Below, piece after piece: positions 2,976-45,129 of a stretch of 45,260 bases of DNA. Within the stretch, counting starts at the first letter, position 1. Every line of letters begins with the position of its first letter. Source of the stretch: Gemmatimonadaceae bacterium (GTDB taxonomy: Bacteria; Gemmatimonadota; Gemmatimonadetes; Gemmatimonadales; Gemmatimonadaceae); the NCBI GenBank assembly GCA_025930755.1, contig JAICOJ010000019.1:1-45260 (forward strand), written 5' to 3'. Under the pieces are notes generated by a model, which did no database searches, was not told where the DNA came from, and saw only the letters and a list, made by a program, of their open reading frames with translations. Made by a program: the position numbers and the translations under genes.

Positions 2976-3064
2976 CCCCCAGGCTGCTCCGCGCGCTAAC
3001 ACATCTGTCACAACTGTCGCACCGAACGGCCAACCTCTCGAAGACGCGCGGAGGTAGACTCGCC

Positions 3065-3162
3065 GTACGCAGTTCGCAATTCGCAGTTCGCAGTTCGCAT
3101 TACGCAGTTCGCAGTTCGCAGTCCGCAGTCCGCAGTCCGCAGTTCGCCGTTCGCCGCTCGCC
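3065..3162. repeat. Direct heptamer array, GTTCGCA type, 14 units
   Basis: Fourteen consecutive 7-base units fill 98 bases exactly. Most read GTTCGCA, with variants GTACGCA, ATTCGCA, TTACGCA, GTCCGCA (three in a row), GTTCGCC and GCTCGCC. Unlike most other arrays in the window it has no inverted partner. It lies between the response regulator and the rhodanese start and reads without stops on both strands. Confidence 0.9.
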
Positions 3163-7141: not shown

Positions 7142-7158
7142 GGGCCAAAGGCAAGAAA

Positions 7159-7253
7159 GGCGCTGGAGGCGCTGGAAATGCGCTGGAGGCGCGGGAACAG
7201 CGCTGACAGACTCAGCGCCTGGTCCAGCGCTGCTCCAGCGCTGCTCCGGCGCT
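7159..7253. repeat. GCGCTGGA/CCAGCGC imperfect inverted repeat
   Basis: Between the desulfurase-like gene and the copper genes, copies of GGCGCTGGA (period 9 to 11) on the left face CCAGCGCTGCT copies (period 11) on the right. The centre CAGCGCTGA-CAGAC-TCAGCGCCTG forms a stem. It may end the sulfur operon transcript, although no T tract follows. The period is not 7, so it is kept apart from the heptamer arrays. Confidence 0.6.
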
Positions 7254-18483: not shown

Positions 18484-18564
18484 GTAACCCCTTGGTGCGG
18501 TAGTTCGTCGAAGATATAGCAAAATGCGACGGTCCGGGCACCTCGGCAGCGTCGCGAAACGCAA

Positions 18565-18653
18565 GGAACGAGGAACGAGGAACCAGGGAGCGGCCTTCGA
18601 ATCCCGGCGCGCCAGCCCTCCATTCCACTTCCTCGTTCCTCGTTCCTCGTTCC
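18565..18653. repeat. Heptamer inverted repeat, GAACGAG type
   Basis: GGAACGAGGAACGAGGAA (18565-18582) is mirrored by TTCCTCGTTCCTCGTTCC and one further unit (18629-18653), around a 46-base spacer. It lies between two diverging genes and ends only seven bases before the PilS-like start codon at 18661, so it covers the whole region where that gene's promoter and ribosome site should be. Confidence 0.88.
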
Positions 18654-24255: not shown

Positions 24256-24412
24256 ACGACTGCGAACTGCGAACTGCGAACTGCGAGCTGCGAACTGCGA
24301 GCTGCGAAGCTGTGGCACCTCACCCACCCTGCCGTCTTCGCAGTTCGCAGTTCGCAGCTCGCAGTACGCAGTACGCAGTACGCAGTACGCAGTACGCAGT
24401 TCGCAGTCGTTC
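24254..24412. repeat. Long heptamer inverted repeat, TTCGCAG type, unequal arms
   Basis: The left arm 24254-24309 (56 bases) carries CTGCGAA/CTGCGAG units. The right arm 24336-24412 (77 bases) carries TTCGCAG, CTCGCAG and five TACGCAG units. The outer 18 bases pair perfectly, and the arms differ by exactly 21 bases, three units, consistent with unit gain in one arm. It starts on the stop codon of the NtrC-like gene. Confidence 0.92.
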
Positions 24413-38011: not shown

Positions 38012-38066
38012 CGAACGAGGAACGAGGAACGAGGAAGCGACTTCCTTGTTCCTCGTTCCTCGTTCG
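38012..38066. repeat. Near-perfect 26-bp heptamer hairpin, GAACGAG type
   Basis: The left arm 38012-38037 and right arm 38041-38066 are 26 bases each with a 3-base loop (CGA); 25 of 26 positions pair and the last would be a G-U pair in RNA. It lies 24 bases after the lipoprotein stop and 13 bases before the aroC start. Confidence 0.93.
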
Positions 38067-40200: not shown

Positions 40201-42789
40201 ATGGCCGAGAAGAAGACAAAGGCGCCCAAGGCAGCGAAGGGGTCCAAGGGATCGAAGGTCGCGAGGACGGCGCGGAAGGGCACCAAAGCGATCGTCCCCG
40301 CGCCGGCGAAGATCGTGTCCCGGCGCTCCACCCGAAAAACCGCCGTCGGCAAGGCACCCCCAGTCGACGACACGCCGTCGGTGATGGGCTCCGGTGCGTC
40401 GCTCGTCATCGTCGAGTCGCCCGCCAAGGCCAAGACCATCGGCAAATACCTCGGCCGCGCCTATCGAGTGAAGGCGACGGTCGGGCACGTGCGCGACCTC
40501 CCGCAGAAGAAGCTGGGCATCGACATCGCGTCCGGCTTCGTCCCGGAGTACGTCACGATCGCGGGCAAGGAGAAGACGCTCGCCGATCTCAAGACCGCCG
40601 CGAAGGATGCCCGCGAGATCTTCCTGGCGACCGACCCCGACCGCGAAGGAGAGGCGATCGCGTGGCACGTCGCCGATCAGATCCGCCGTCGTGGCGGCGC
40701 GCCGATTCGCCGGGTGCTCTTCCACGAGATCACGAAAGACGCGGTGCAGACCGCGATCGACAACGCTGGCGTGATCGACGAGAAGAAAGTCGAGGCGCAG
40801 CAGGCGCGACGAGTGCTCGACCGCCTCGTGGGCTACAAGGCCTCGCCCCTGCTGTGGAAGACGGTGAAAACCGGCCTGTCGGCGGGCCGCGTGCAGACGG
40901 TCGCGCTCCGGCTCATCGTCGAGCGCGAGCGCGAGATCCGCGCGTTCACGGCCGTCGAATACTGGAGCATCGAGGCCCAGCTCGAGAAGGAGGGCCAGCA
41001 GTTCACCGCGCGGCTCCACCACATCGATGGCAAGAAGCCGGAGATCCCCAACGAGCAGACGGCGAAGGGAATCGTCGACGCCGTGACCGCGATCGCGAAG
41101 CGCGAGATGGGCAAGCTCGGAGCTGGCAGTTCGGAGCTCGCAGTTCGCAGTTCGCAGCTCGCAGCTCGCAGTTCGCAGTTCGCAGTTGGTGTCTTCCCGG
41201 TCTCCGACGTCAAGCGCCGCGAGCGGCGGAAGAACCCCGCCGCGCCGTTCACGACGAGCACGCTCCAGCAGGAAGCGGCCAAGAAGCTGGGCTTCGGCTC
41301 CAAGCGCACCATGCGCGTCGCGCAGGACCTCTACGAGGGCATCGAGCTGGGTGACGAGACCGTTGGTCTCATTACGTACATGCGCACCGACTCCACGCGC
41401 GTGTCGCCGACGGCTGCCGGTCAGGCGCGTGATCACCTGCGCGTGTTATTCGGAAAGGAGTTCCTCGCCGACTCGCCGCGCCTGTACGGCAACGCGAAGC
41501 AGGCAAACACGCAGGACGCGCACGAGGCGGTCCGCCCAACCGATCCGACGCGTCACCCCGAGCACATCCGCCGCTACCTCGACGCCGATCAGTTCAAGCT
41601 CTACCAGCTGATCTGGCAACGCTTCATGGCGTCGCAGATGGCGCCGGCGGTCTTCGATACGACGACGGTGGAGTATCATCTGGAGTCCGACGGCTCGCAG
41701 GGTACAGCACGCAGTACGCAGCACGCAGCACGCAGCTTTCACTTCAGATCGACCGGTTCCGTCATCAAGTTCCAGGGCTACCTCGCCCTCTACCGCGAAG
41801 CGCACGAGGAAGGGGAGGGTCGCGCGCTCGAGGACGAGCAGCCGCTGCCGGTCCTCGAGACGGGCGAGCGCATTCCGGTGCGCGAGATCGTACCGAACCA
41901 GCATTTCACCGAGCCGCCCCCTCGCTTCAGCGAGGCGAGCCTGGTGAAGGAGCTCGAGCGCCTCGGGATCGGGCGCCCGTCGACGTACGCATCGATCATT
42001 TCGACGCTCACCGAGAAGCAGTACGCGCGCCTCGAGCAGCGTCGCTTCTTCCCGAGTGACCTGGGCGAGAAGGTCGAGCGAGTGATGGTCAAGCAGTTCC
42101 CCGACATCTTCAACGTGAAGTTCACGTCGGAGATGGAAGAGGAGCTCGACAAGGTGGAGGACGGCAGCCTCGGCTGGCAGCGCGTGCTCGAGGAGTTCTG
42201 GAAGCCGTTCGAGTCCGCGCTCAAGACCGCCGATCCGCAGAAGATGATCGCCGATGCGCACGACCTGGGCGATCTCGTCAACGAGCGCTGTCCGGAGGAC
42301 GGCGGCCGCCTCATTGCGCGCAGCGGCCGCTTCGGGCCGTTCATCGCTTGCGAGAACTACCCGGCGTGCAAGCACACGCGTCGTCTCGCCGGCGACAAGA
42401 AGCCTGACGAGCCGACGAACGAGGTGTGTCGTGAGTGCGGCGCGCCGATGCTCATCAAGCATGGCCGGTACGGGCGCTTCATGGCCTGCAGCCGCTATCC
42501 CGAGTGCAAGCACACGCGTCCGATCCCCCTCGGCGTCAAATGTCCGAAGGATGGCGGCGATCTCACCGAGCGCCGCTCACGCCGCGGCAAGATCTTCTTC
42601 GGATGCGCGAACTACCCGAACTGCGACTTCGTCTCCTGGAATCGCCCGGTCGCCGAGCGATGCCCCGACTGCGGCTTCGAGGGTGCGGAAGCGAAGAGCA
42701 CGAAGGCCCGCGGCGAATTCCGCAAATGTCTCAAGTGCGGCAACGAGTGGGACGTGGTCGCGCGCGAGGAGGAAGCGGTGGCGGTCTAG
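40201..42789 (+). CDS. topA: DNA topoisomerase I TopA with two repeat-derived insertions
   Basis: 862 residues from the ATG at 40201. A lysine-rich N-terminal extension (about 1-65) precedes the Toprim domain (LVIVESPAKAKTIGKYLG; acidic ATDPDREGEAIAWH). The active-site tyrosine is Tyr393 in GLITYMRTDSTR. Four zinc-ribbon modules close the protein (CPEDGG, CRECG, CPKDGG, CPDCG). The enzyme relaxes negative supercoils by single-strand passage. Two stretches, about 309-330 and 499-512, are encoded by heptamer arrays (SELAVRSSQLAARSSQFAV; ARSTQHAARS) and lie where other TopA proteins have short loops, just before the KNPAAPFTTSTLQQ segment and before GSVIKFQGYLALY. The frame stays open across both, so the gene appears functional. 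Confidence 0.93.
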   Translation: MAEKKTKAPKAAKGSKGSKVARTARKGTKAIVPAPAKIVSRRSTRKTAVGKAPPVDDTPSVMGSGASLVIVESPAKAKTIGKYLGRAYRVKATVGHVRDLPQKKLGIDIASGFVPEYVTIAGKEKTLADLKTAAKDAREIFLATDPDREGEAIAWHVADQIRRRGGAPIRRVLFHEITKDAVQTAIDNAGVIDEKKVEAQQARRVLDRLVGYKASPLLWKTVKTGLSAGRVQTVALRLIVEREREIRAFTAVEYWSIEAQLEKEGQQFTARLHHIDGKKPEIPNEQTAKGIVDAVTAIAKREMGKLGAGSSELAVRSSQLAARSSQFAVGVFPVSDVKRRERRKNPAAPFTTSTLQQEAAKKLGFGSKRTMRVAQDLYEGIELGDETVGLITYMRTDSTRVSPTAAGQARDHLRVLFGKEFLADSPRLYGNAKQANTQDAHEAVRPTDPTRHPEHIRRYLDADQFKLYQLIWQRFMASQMAPAVFDTTTVEYHLESDGSQGTARSTQHAARSFHFRSTGSVIKFQGYLALYREAHEEGEGRALEDEQPLPVLETGERIPVREIVPNQHFTEPPPRFSEASLVKELERLGIGRPSTYASIISTLTEKQYARLEQRRFFPSDLGEKVERVMVKQFPDIFNVKFTSEMEEELDKVEDGSLGWQRVLEEFWKPFESALKTADPQKMIADAHDLGDLVNERCPEDGGRLIARSGRFGPFIACENYPACKHTRRLAGDKKPDEPTNEVCRECGAPMLIKHGRYGRFMACSRYPECKHTRPIPLGVKCPKDGGDLTERRSRRGKIFFGCANYPNCDFVSWNRPVAERCPDCGFEGAEAKSTKARGEFRKCLKCGNEWDVVAREEEAVAV
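41126..41188 (+). repeat. In-frame heptamer array in topA, GCAGTTC type
   Basis: Nine units in a row (GCAGTTC, GGAGCTC, GCAGTTC twice, GCAGCTC twice, GCAGTTC twice, GCAGTTG), 63 bases or 21 codons. Two more degenerate units may lie just upstream (41112-41125). Same family as the arrays at 3065 and 24254. Confidence 0.93.
41695..41736 (+). repeat. Second in-frame heptamer array in topA
   Basis: Six units (TCGCAGG, GTACAGC, ACGCAGT, then ACGCAGC three times), 42 bases or 14 codons. The boundaries are fuzzy, but the unit total keeps the reading frame. Confidence 0.85.
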
Positions 42790-42791
42790 TC

Positions 42792-42887
42792 CGAACGAGG
42801 AACGAGGCACGAGGAAGTGGGTGGCGAGTCTCTCTCTCGCCACCCATTTTGTTTGAATGGTGCTTCCTCGTTCCTCGCTCCTCGTTC
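42792..42887. repeat. Heptamer inverted repeat spanning the topA-trmFO gap, GAACGAG type
   Basis: The left arm 42792-42817 starts two bases after the topA stop. The right arm 42863-42887 lies inside the trmFO reading frame. The arms pair with two mismatches. A separate 10-bp hairpin sits between them. Confidence 0.9.
42819..42853 (+). terminator. Intrinsic terminator after topA
   Basis: GGGTGGCGAG (42819-42828) and CTCGCCACCC (42836-42845) pair perfectly around TCTCTCT and are followed by ATTTTGTTT, the only hairpin in the window with a T-rich tail. It would end or attenuate transcription between topA and trmFO, nested inside the heptamer arms. Confidence 0.7.
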
Positions 42888-44206
42888 ACGTGGTCGGCGG
42901 CGGCCTCGCCGGCTCCGAAGCCGCCTACCAGCTCGCCGAGCGCGGAGTCTCCGTCGTCCTGCACGAAATGCGGCCCGTGCGCGAGACGCCGGCGCACAAG
43001 ACGGACCGGCTGGCCGAGCTGGTGTGCTCCAACACCTTCAAGAGCACCGAGGTCAGCAACGCGCACGGGCTTCTCAAGGCCGAGATGCGCGCGATGGGGT
43101 CGATGATCCTGCAGGCGGCCGACGACGCGCGCGTTCCCGGCGGGAGCGCGCTCGCGGTCGACCGTGATCTCTTCTCCGCCGCGGTGCACGAGCGCGTGAC
43201 GTCGCATCCGCGCATTCAGGTCGTTCGCGAGGAGGTGACGACGCTCCCGTCGCCCGGCATCATCGCCACCGGCCCGCTCACGTCCGATGCGCTCGCCGCT
43301 GCGATTCGTGAACGGCTCGGTGTCGAGTCGCTCGCCTTCTACGACGCGATCGCTCCCATCGTGTCCGCCGATTCCATCGATGGGTCGATCGTGTGGCGGG
43401 CGTCGCGCTACGATCGCGAGACCATGGCCGGCACCGAGGAGGGCGCATACATCAATTGTCCGATGAATCGCGAGGAATACGCTGCGTTCATCGACGCGTT
43501 GACGACGGCCGATCAGCACCATGGCCACGAGTTCGACACGGTGCCCTACTTCGAGGGCTGCATGCCCATCGAGGAGATGGCGCGCCGCGGTCGCGACACG
43601 CTGCGTTTTGGGCCGATGAAGCCGGTGGGGCTGCGCGACCCGCGCACCGGTCACATTCCGTACGCCGTCGTGCAGCTGCGCATGGAGGACAGGGCGGGGC
43701 AGATGTGGAACCTCGTCGGATGCCAGACGCGCATGCGGATCCCCGAGCAGCAGCGCGTCTTTCGCCTCATTCCTGGTCTCGCCGACGCGGAGTTCCTGCG
43801 CTACGGCTCGATCCATCGGAACTCGTACGTCAACTCGCCGGCATCGCTCACGCCGCACCTCTCGTTGCGCGACGACCCGCAGATGATGTTCGCGGGGCAG
43901 CTCACGGGGGTGGAGGGATACACGGAGAGCAGTGCGACCGGCCTCCTGGCGGGCATCAACCTCGCCCGTATGCTCAACGGGGAGGAGCCGGCCATGCCTC
44001 CGACGACGACGATGCTTGGCGCGCTCTACCGCTATCTCCGCGAAGCGGACCCGCGCCATTTCCAGCCCATGAACGCGAACTTCGGTCTCGTGGACGAGCT
44101 GCCCGAGCCGGTTCGCGACAAGCGACTGAAGCGGGAGATGCTGGCGGGCCGCGCGCTCGCGGAGCTCGGGGCGTGGCTCGATCAGATGGCGGTAGCGCAC
44201 CGATGA
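42857..44206 (+). CDS. trmFO: tRNA uracil-54 C5-methyltransferase, folate- and FAD-dependent, TrmFO
   Basis: 449 residues. The dinucleotide-binding start is VVGGGLAGSEAAYQLAERG; other TrmFO landmarks are HEMRPVRETPAHKTDRLAEL, VCSNTFKSTEVSNAHGLLK, INCPMNREEYAAFIDAL and the C-terminal ANFGLVDELPEPVRDKRLKR. It makes ribothymidine at position 54 of tRNAs using methylene-tetrahydrofolate and FADH2. The first 11 or so residues (MVLPRSSLLVH) are encoded by the right arm of a heptamer repeat, and the first beta strand needed for the FAD fold is partly repeat-derived. Later starts (for example the GTG at 42890) would remove that strand. The gene order topA-trmFO-xerC is conserved in many bacteria. Confidence 0.93.
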   Translation: MVLPRSSLLVHVVGGGLAGSEAAYQLAERGVSVVLHEMRPVRETPAHKTDRLAELVCSNTFKSTEVSNAHGLLKAEMRAMGSMILQAADDARVPGGSALAVDRDLFSAAVHERVTSHPRIQVVREEVTTLPSPGIIATGPLTSDALAAAIRERLGVESLAFYDAIAPIVSADSIDGSIVWRASRYDRETMAGTEEGAYINCPMNREEYAAFIDALTTADQHHGHEFDTVPYFEGCMPIEEMARRGRDTLRFGPMKPVGLRDPRTGHIPYAVVQLRMEDRAGQMWNLVGCQTRMRIPEQQRVFRLIPGLADAEFLRYGSIHRNSYVNSPASLTPHLSLRDDPQMMFAGQLTGVEGYTESSATGLLAGINLARMLNGEEPAMPPTTTMLGALYRYLREADPRHFQPMNANFGLVDELPEPVRDKRLKREMLAGRALAELGAWLDQMAVAHR

Positions 44207-45129
44207 CCGCGGCCGGGGGCCCGCTCGACGACTTCCTGGACCATCTCGCGAAAGAGCGCGACGTCTCCCCCAACACCATCACGGCGTACTCGCGCGACTT
44301 GAGCGCGTTCGTCGCCTTTCTCTCCACCTACTACGGGACGAGCGACTGGACCTGGGGTGGGGTGGACCGCCTGGCGATCCGCGGATTCATGGCGCACCTG
44401 ACGAGAGCCCGGCTCGGCAAGCGATCGATCGCGCGCGCGCTGTCGGCGGTCCGATCGTTCTATCGCTTCCTGCATCGCACCGAGGCGGTGGAAGCCAATC
44501 CGGCGCGTGGCGTGGGATCGCCGAAGGTGGAGAAGCACCTGCCCGGCTACCTCGACCGGGCGCAGATCGGCTTGCTGTTTCAGATGGCCGAGACGCGGGC
44601 GTGGGAGGGGCGGTTCTCCGATGTGCGCAACCTCGCGATGCTCGAGCTGTTCTATTCGACTGGCCTGCGCCTCTCGGAGCTGCGCGGCATCAACCGGATC
44701 GATCTCGATCTCGTATCGCAGCAGGTGAAGGTGCGCGGAAAGGGGCGAAAGGAGCGGATCGTTCCGGTCGGCGATCACGCGCAGCTGGCGCTGAGAAACT
44801 ACGAGGCGAAGCGCGACGAGCTCCTGCGGCAGCTCGGCGCGCGCGGCGATCGCACCGCCTACTTCCTGAGCCGAACGGGCAAACGAATCTCGGTCCGCGC
44901 GATCCAGAATGCCGTCACGACGTTCCTCGACCAGCTGGACGAGGACGCCGGCCTTTCCGTGCACTCCCTGCGTCACACCTTCGCGACCCACCTGCTCGAT
45001 GCCGGCGCCGACCTCCGCGCCGTCCAGGAGCTGCTCGGCCACGCTTCGGTCTCGACGACGCAGGTCTACACGCACGTGAGCGTCGAGCGGTTGAAGGAGG
45101 TGTACCGGAAAGCGCATCCGAGAGCGTGA
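44203..45129 (+). CDS. xerC: Tyrosine recombinase XerC
   Basis: 308 residues from the ATG at 44203, overlapping trmFO by ATGA. An N-terminal SAM-like core-binding domain (1-about 100) is followed by the catalytic domain with the full set: Arg156 in TGLRLSEL, Lys180 in VRGKGRKER, His254 and Arg257 in HSLRHTFATH, His280 in LLGHAS and nucleophile Tyr289 in VYTHVS. XerC with XerD resolves chromosome dimers at dif. Neighbourhood with topA and trmFO, as in the topA-trmFO-xerC-hslVU order, favours the housekeeping enzyme rather than a phage integrase. Confidence 0.92.
   Translation: MTAAGGPLDDFLDHLAKERDVSPNTITAYSRDLSAFVAFLSTYYGTSDWTWGGVDRLAIRGFMAHLTRARLGKRSIARALSAVRSFYRFLHRTEAVEANPARGVGSPKVEKHLPGYLDRAQIGLLFQMAETRAWEGRFSDVRNLAMLELFYSTGLRLSELRGINRIDLDLVSQQVKVRGKGRKERIVPVGDHAQLALRNYEAKRDELLRQLGARGDRTAYFLSRTGKRISVRAIQNAVTTFLDQLDEDAGLSVHSLRHTFATHLLDAGADLRAVQELLGHASVSTTQVYTHVSVERLKEVYRKAHPRA

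Follow-up and report, generated by a model that had tools for sequence, protein, structure and literature searches.

Two in-frame heptamer arrays in topA of a Gemmatimonadaceae bacterium, probably captured from a genome-wide repeat

The topA gene of a Gemmatimonadaceae soil bacterium, represented by a MAG, contains two in-frame arrays of tandem heptamers, which are probably copies of genome-wide short-period arrays, captured in tolerant loops of the protein through copying within the genome. The pattern is bigger than these two arrays: heptamers inside genes carry words of the host genome, most dispersed arrays form inverted pairs at gene ends, and the word changes between congeners. The sequence analysed, referred to as the window, is the stretch from position 1 to 45,260 (45,260 nucleotides) of contig JAICOJ010000019.1, which belongs to assembly GCA_025930755.1 (4.27 Mb in 275 contigs; here G000). 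The wider scan covered about 1.02 Mb of G000 together with 0.59 Mb from G001 (JAICNG01, OF_bin.40), the sole other genome of the genus compared. Genes were called with a home-made caller, and the genomes are MAGs that are possibly incomplete.

Results

Two heptamer arrays lie in frame in topA

The product of topA matches TopA proteins of the PDB at E values of 2e-159 and below, and Y393 and R395 of the catalytic motif are invariant in an alignment of 31 sequences, indicating that the reading frame is intact (Table 1). Array 1 reads GCAGTTC GGAGCTC GCAGTTC GCAGTTC GCAGCTC GCAGCTC GCAGTTC GCAGTTC GCAGTTg, in agreement with the nine units and 63 bases given in the initial annotation, and is recovered by TRF at 41126–41187 with period 7. 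For array 2, six units and 42 bases had been proposed. An in-frame array is present at this position, but its clean portion amounts to about 4.6 copies (41705–41736 by TRF); units 5' of that portion are degenerate, and the six-unit parse takes in GGTACAG, which mismatches at four of seven positions.

Table 1. Features of the window discussed in the text
Feature	Position	Strand	Remarks
topA, DNA topoisomerase I, 862 aa	40201..42789	+	single uninterrupted ORF
array 1	41126..41188	+	nine GCAGTTC-type heptamers, 63 bp; residues 309-330 (SSELAVRSSQLAARSSQFAVG); single-armed
array 2	41694..41735	+	CACGCAG/TACGCAG-type heptamers; residues 498-512; single-armed
left arm, GAACGAG word, two-armed element of topA-trmFO spacer	42793..42816	+	repeat detection
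right arm, TTCCTCG word, two-armed element of topA-trmFO spacer	42864..42887	+	repeat detection
two-armed element, GAACTGC / GCAGTTC (word of topA array 1)	24259..24407	+	MFE -112, z -13.5
two-armed element, GAACGAG / TTCCTCG word	38013..38065	+	z -12.4
two-armed element, AACGAGG word	18564..18653	+	inverted partner found
long intergenic GCAGTTC-type array without clear partner	3060..3162	+	repeat detection

When the peptide was held constant, none of 20,000 synonymous recodings reached the lag-7 score of array 1 (38) and two of 20,000 reached that of array 2 (19). Shuffling the codons of the full topA CDS 2,000 times gave a top lag-7 score of 11, compared with these values of 38 and 19. The period-7 repetition is a property of the DNA and is not imposed by the peptide. 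No inverted partner of array 1 was found within 220 bp (best match 11/14), the best for array 2 was 9/14, and both arrays fold no better than shuffled sequence (z 0.2 and 1.0). A search for a plasmid copy of this topA found none.

The arrays occupy variable loops of TopA

As the initial annotation had suggested should be checked, we aligned about 100 TopA loci. Neither segment is conserved across the orthologues: every other TopA in this set either lacks the array or has different sequence in its place. The idea that the sites correspond to short loops elsewhere is right for the E. coli and Thermotoga enzymes, in which alignment gaps at about residues 293–331 and 499–513 cover both sites. It does not describe the closer relatives: a variable loop of 10–20 residues is already present at site 1 in most of the nearest full-length ones, and length varies at both sites among the Gemmatimonadaceae. 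In an AlphaFold model built with an alignment of 31 sequences (the window plus fetched loci; mean pLDDT 83), both arrays are predicted as low-confidence segments (pLDDT 53–69) of an otherwise confident fold, array 1 being placed between helix 285–309 and strand 330–344, and array 2 at the turn joining strands 483–495 and 512–524.

The 5' part of topA in the congener G001 is 82% identical to that of G000. At site 1, G001 has TTCCTCG GTCCTCG TTCCTCG GTCC, a word unlike the GCAGTTC of G000, and at site 2 it has CGCAATC CGCAATC, compared with CGCAGYA in G000. The resulting loop peptides, VLVPRSF and ALGAARNPQS, are quite unlike those of G000. The G001 assembly splits inside topA at loop 2, giving two contigs (end of L075, start of L079) that overlap at their ends and match almost completely on either side of a loop that differs, including a 15-bp in-frame gap. 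Most simply, these represent two coexisting alleles; an assembly artefact is the alternative.

Arrays within genes keep the net frame

Since 7 equals 1 modulo 3, every frame of one strand of a heptamer array encodes an identical cycle of seven residues (AVRSSQF from GCAGTTC, FLVPRSS from TTCCTCG and HAARSTQ from CACGCAG), and the frame therefore depends on total length alone. GCAGTTC and TTCCTCG contain no stops on either strand, while TGACTCC and CTGAATT are stop-free on one strand only. Two predictions had followed from the apparent unit counts in topA, namely that units within genes come in threes and that lengths change in steps of three units. Neither is supported, as other arrays within genes measure approximately 25, 25, 27 and 28 bp (3.5–4 units) and the apparent alleles of G001 loop 2 differ by 15 bp. 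In-gene arrays preserve net frame, not a particular number of units.

Arrays in other core genes carry words of the same genome

The proposal that the repeats can enter genes and be tolerated extends beyond topA to three genes that, on the basis of sequence motifs, we take to be tgt, metH and the gene for an acyl-CoA carboxylase beta subunit. One loop of the carboxylase subunit contains GCAGTCC in G001, degenerate GCAGTTC in G000 and CCGCTTC/CGGGAAG in G006. The linker after the first domain of MetH contains CGCAATC in G001 and TCTCGCA in G011. The Tgt loop preceding FPIVQGG carries four or five distinct words across five genomes: a two-armed GGGCCAA... in G001, GAACGAG in G000, a two-armed GATTCCC in G003, CGATTCC in G006 and GGGGAGC in G041. 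In G001 and G003, whole two-armed elements thus lie in frame inside tgt. Arrays thus do make new protein loops, as first proposed for topA: they lie in loops that the E. coli and Thermotoga TopA lack, and in Tgt, the carboxylase and MetH as well. Usefulness of the loops is not needed as an explanation; tolerance suffices.

In the genomes for which the dispersed word was counted, arrays within genes carry that genome's own word; at site 1 of topA and in Tgt and the carboxylase the match is exact or has one mismatch. The resident word is found within genes in G000 (GCAGTTC in topA and carboxylase, GAACGAG in Tgt), G001 (AAGGGCC in Tgt), G003 (GATTCCC in Tgt) and G006 (CGGGAAT/GATTCCC in Tgt and carboxylase). 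This agreement between in-gene and resident words is the strongest argument that the arrays were captured from the dispersed pool and not grown locally.

Among further cases, the Tgt loop of two genomes from another family of the order (loci L295 and L299) has period-8 arrays in place of period-7 arrays. In G001, a two-armed AAGGGCC element lies in frame at the N-terminus of a recombinase-like (XerC-type) gene after trmFO (L189, 2671–2770); the recombinase-like gene after trmFO in the window (44203–44240) is without it. Five other candidates (L115, L119, L128, L162 and L163) were rejected as in-gene arrays, because codon usage upstream of the array is non-coding and the true start is therefore probably downstream of it.

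The arrays belong to a genome-wide set of inverted pairs

The scanned 1.02 Mb of G000 contains 117 period-7 arrays, 109 of them intergenic, and between none and four arrays at periods 4–6, 8, 10 and 11. A period-9 set of 48 arrays is also mostly intergenic, with other words and again with inverted pairs; period-9 repeats of AGGCGCTGG / CAGCGC units at 7155–7253 of the window belong to it. The G000 heptamers fall into the word families GCAGTTC, TTCCTCG, TGACTCC/TGACCCC, CTGAATT and AATCCGC. An intergenic array of about 14 units, noted at the outset, was recovered by TRF at 3060–3154 with 13.6 copies.

Among the first 99 period-7 arrays of G000, 83 have an inverted partner at most 220 bp away. 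These pairs surround hairpin cores, some of which are common to several copies; the core of the GCAGTTC-armed elements is AACCCTCGGGAAGCTAC...GTAGCTTCCCGAGGGTT, and that of the TGACTCC-armed elements is a double hairpin with CTCATCAGATGAGCAAA. In G000 and G001 alike, the elements show enrichment between convergent genes (18/60 compared with 54/379, p=0.0005, in G000; 9/21 compared with 41/229, p=0.005, in G001) and are rarer between divergent genes (p=0.058 and 0.017, respectively), a distribution that would be expected if they resemble terminators. The two-armed elements of the window fold strongly, with z from -10 to -13. In the element of the topA-trmFO spacer, the arms fold together around a terminator-like core (MFE -61.9, z -9.9). 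The start predicted for trmFO falls within the heptamer arm on the right (42857–42895; MVLPRSSLLVH...), so that the arm may supply the N-terminus of the protein, or the start may be misplaced. An Rfam scan of 119.5 kb holding several elements matched tRNA alone and no element.

Words are genome-specific, and arms and cores are separable

Counts of three tandem copies of a word, overlapping matches included, differ sharply between genomes. GCAGTTC gave 145 matches in G000, 80 in G003, which belongs to another genus, and none in the congener G001 or in 38 others; TTCCTCG gave 66 in G000, two in G001 and none elsewhere; and GATTCCC gave 100 in G003, 31 in G006 and none elsewhere. The CTCATCAGATGAGCAAA core is present in ten copies in G000 and nine in G001 and is absent from 58 other genomes, and in the five copies read per genome the arm words are largely unlike between G000 and G001. 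The core of the GCAGTTC-armed elements of G000 was not found in G003, although G003 has 80 matches to the word. Around a similar core in the topA-trmFO spacer, G000 has arms of the TTCCTCG word and G001 arms of the AATCCGC word. In the orthologous spacer L138/L218, both genomes have the terminator core, and the arms are confined to G000. Cores and arms of the elements are separable.

Candidate movers

No transposase or copying enzyme linked to the arrays was found. G000 has one copy of a RAYT-like Y1 transposase (G000:C64:10760-11086); none was detected in G001, G003 or G006, all of which bear arrays. A search for reverse transcriptases in G000 and G001 found none. Neither enzyme was consistently present in the genomes searched, and both were set aside as movers. 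A phage-borne repeat in general was rejected: the two main words occur in one and five stretches among 2.9 million viral contigs. One viral contig, L336, holds two arrays of the GCAGTTC word and one of a different heptamer. The elements have the inverted arms of a MITE, and the few comparisons of empty and filled sites yielded no definable target-site duplication. For the topA arrays neither such a duplication nor a clean empty site was defined, since both genomes known from the genus have arrays at these positions.

Discussion

The most probable account of these observations is that array DNA would spread by being copied from one locus of a genome to another, either through transposition of elements or through conversion or template switching onto a pre-existing array. 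Copies arriving in coding genes would be retained only in a tolerant loop or linker and with a net length that is a multiple of three. Capture may be eased by the seven-residue cycle common to all frames and by the stop-free words seen within genes, and a single arm, as in topA, would be without a strong hairpin to hinder transcription. Slippage and ordinary indels could later alter array length in frame. The protein loop would then be incidental to a repeat that is selfish or structural, and not a designed feature. As the topA arrays are without a core, they may also have originated independently of the element.

If the arrays had instead grown in place by replication slippage, starting in an unconstrained loop from a 7-mer that happened to be duplicated and with no transfer, the length variation of both TopA loops within the family and the length polymorphism would be accounted for, and array 2 does differ from its G001 counterpart by few substitutions. 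Slippage would nevertheless yield unrelated words, whereas the arrays of Tgt, of the carboxylase and of topA at site 1 carry the dispersed words of the genome, and this holds in other genomes too. The site 1 words of two congeners are themselves unrelated, and we consider local growth distinctly unlikely as the origin of the arrays. Quite improbable, in our view, is that some hitherto unrecognized machinery writes or converts arrays of short period (7, 9 and, in places, 8) whose word can change, and keeps the two arms alike. It would fit a period that is nearly fixed while the word varies by genome, and the separability of cores and arms, as seen in the CTCATCAGATGAGCAAA core with differing arms and in GCAGTTC arrays of G003 that are without the G000 core. 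The same pattern could, however, arise from ordinary recombination, arm-to-arm template switching and selection of hairpins, and the searches for a Y1 transposase and a reverse transcriptase found no candidate enzyme. A related proposal, that an undescribed process in the Gemmatimonadales installs and rewrites period-7/9 arrays with a genome-specific word, in both arms together, and repeatedly targets or survives in the same core-enzyme loops across genera, seems to us unlikely.

Two further explanations give the arrays a function. TopA binds DNA, and the loop peptides are rich in Ser and Arg, as might be expected if basic, serine-rich loops had been selected for DNA binding or for regulation of TopA. 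This is very improbable, given that the congener has quite different peptides at the same sites (VLVPRSF and ALGAARNPQS) and that similar arrays occur in the unrelated enzymes Tgt, MetH and carboxylase. A contingency repeat that switches topA by frameshift would exploit the unit length: as 7 is not divisible by 3, a change of one unit shifts the frame. Such phase variation is scarcely credible here, since topA is expected to be essential and every allele seen is in frame, including the two apparent G001 alleles 15 bp apart. Capture from the dispersed pool by within-genome copying is our preferred reading.

REP and REPIN elements, which are mobilised by RAYT transposases, form intergenic hairpin pairs in many copies; their REP sequence is expected to be conserved and to be accompanied by a RAYT partner. 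The many-copy intergenic hairpin pairs described here resemble them, but several array-bearing genomes had no detected RAYT-like gene. Rickettsia palindromic elements (Ogata et al. 2000, 2002) are small dispersed inverted-repeat elements found in frame in unrelated genes, including those for metabolic enzymes; they are conserved, are about 150 bp long, encode a conserved peptide and are apparently tolerated by the fold (PMC10969869). In-frame insertion in unrelated genes (topA twice, tgt, the carboxylase beta subunit and metH) is a shared feature, and the two-armed in-frame tgt copies of G001 and G003, which are palindromic as a whole, are a close fit. The topA arrays, in contrast, are single-armed, have no core and are not palindromic; moreover, words and peptides here change between congeners at one site, the arms are tandem heptamers, and arms can be separated from cores.

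Heptamers of Beggiatoaceae and Cyanobacteria (the STRR of Microcystis and Nostoc) are dispersed and mostly intergenic, with some copies in ORFs, strain-specific placement and reported indels in steps of 7 nt, and the TAACTGA repeats of Beggiatoaceae have one dominant word, lie mostly upstream of start codons and, where within ORFs, are mainly at protein ends (PMC4679880). Tandem arrays of 7-bp units dispersed through the genome, mostly between genes, are common to both systems. Those described here differ from TAACTGA repeats in their words, in forming inverted pairs around hairpins mostly downstream of genes, and in having copies deep in core enzymes. Tandem repeats of constant size and variable sequence in Bacillus share with the present arrays a fixed period with a unit sequence that varies by family or species, but their periods are 52 and 20–21 nt and not 7 or 9, and the abstract describing them makes no mention of in-frame loop insertion (Subirana and Messeguer 2021, PMC8161180). 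The present system combines features of the Rickettsia elements and of the heptamer repeats and is distinct from each in its turnover of words between congeners, its separable arms and cores, and its use of the same loops across genera. General repeat and transposon counts have been reported for Gemmatimonadota (PMC11237797), and no earlier description of this system in that group was found in the literature searched.

These arrays provide a bacterial case outside Rickettsia in which a dispersed repeat supplies sequence to essential enzymes. As genome-specific words make donor and recipient recognizable, the origin of new protein loops becomes directly testable. A near-constant period combined with rapidly changing sequence is unexplained by current classes of repeat. 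There is also a caution for the analysis of proteins from MAGs, whose variable loops can be repeat-derived. In this bacterium and its relatives, a roaming repeat would appear to keep rewriting the surface loops of core proteins.
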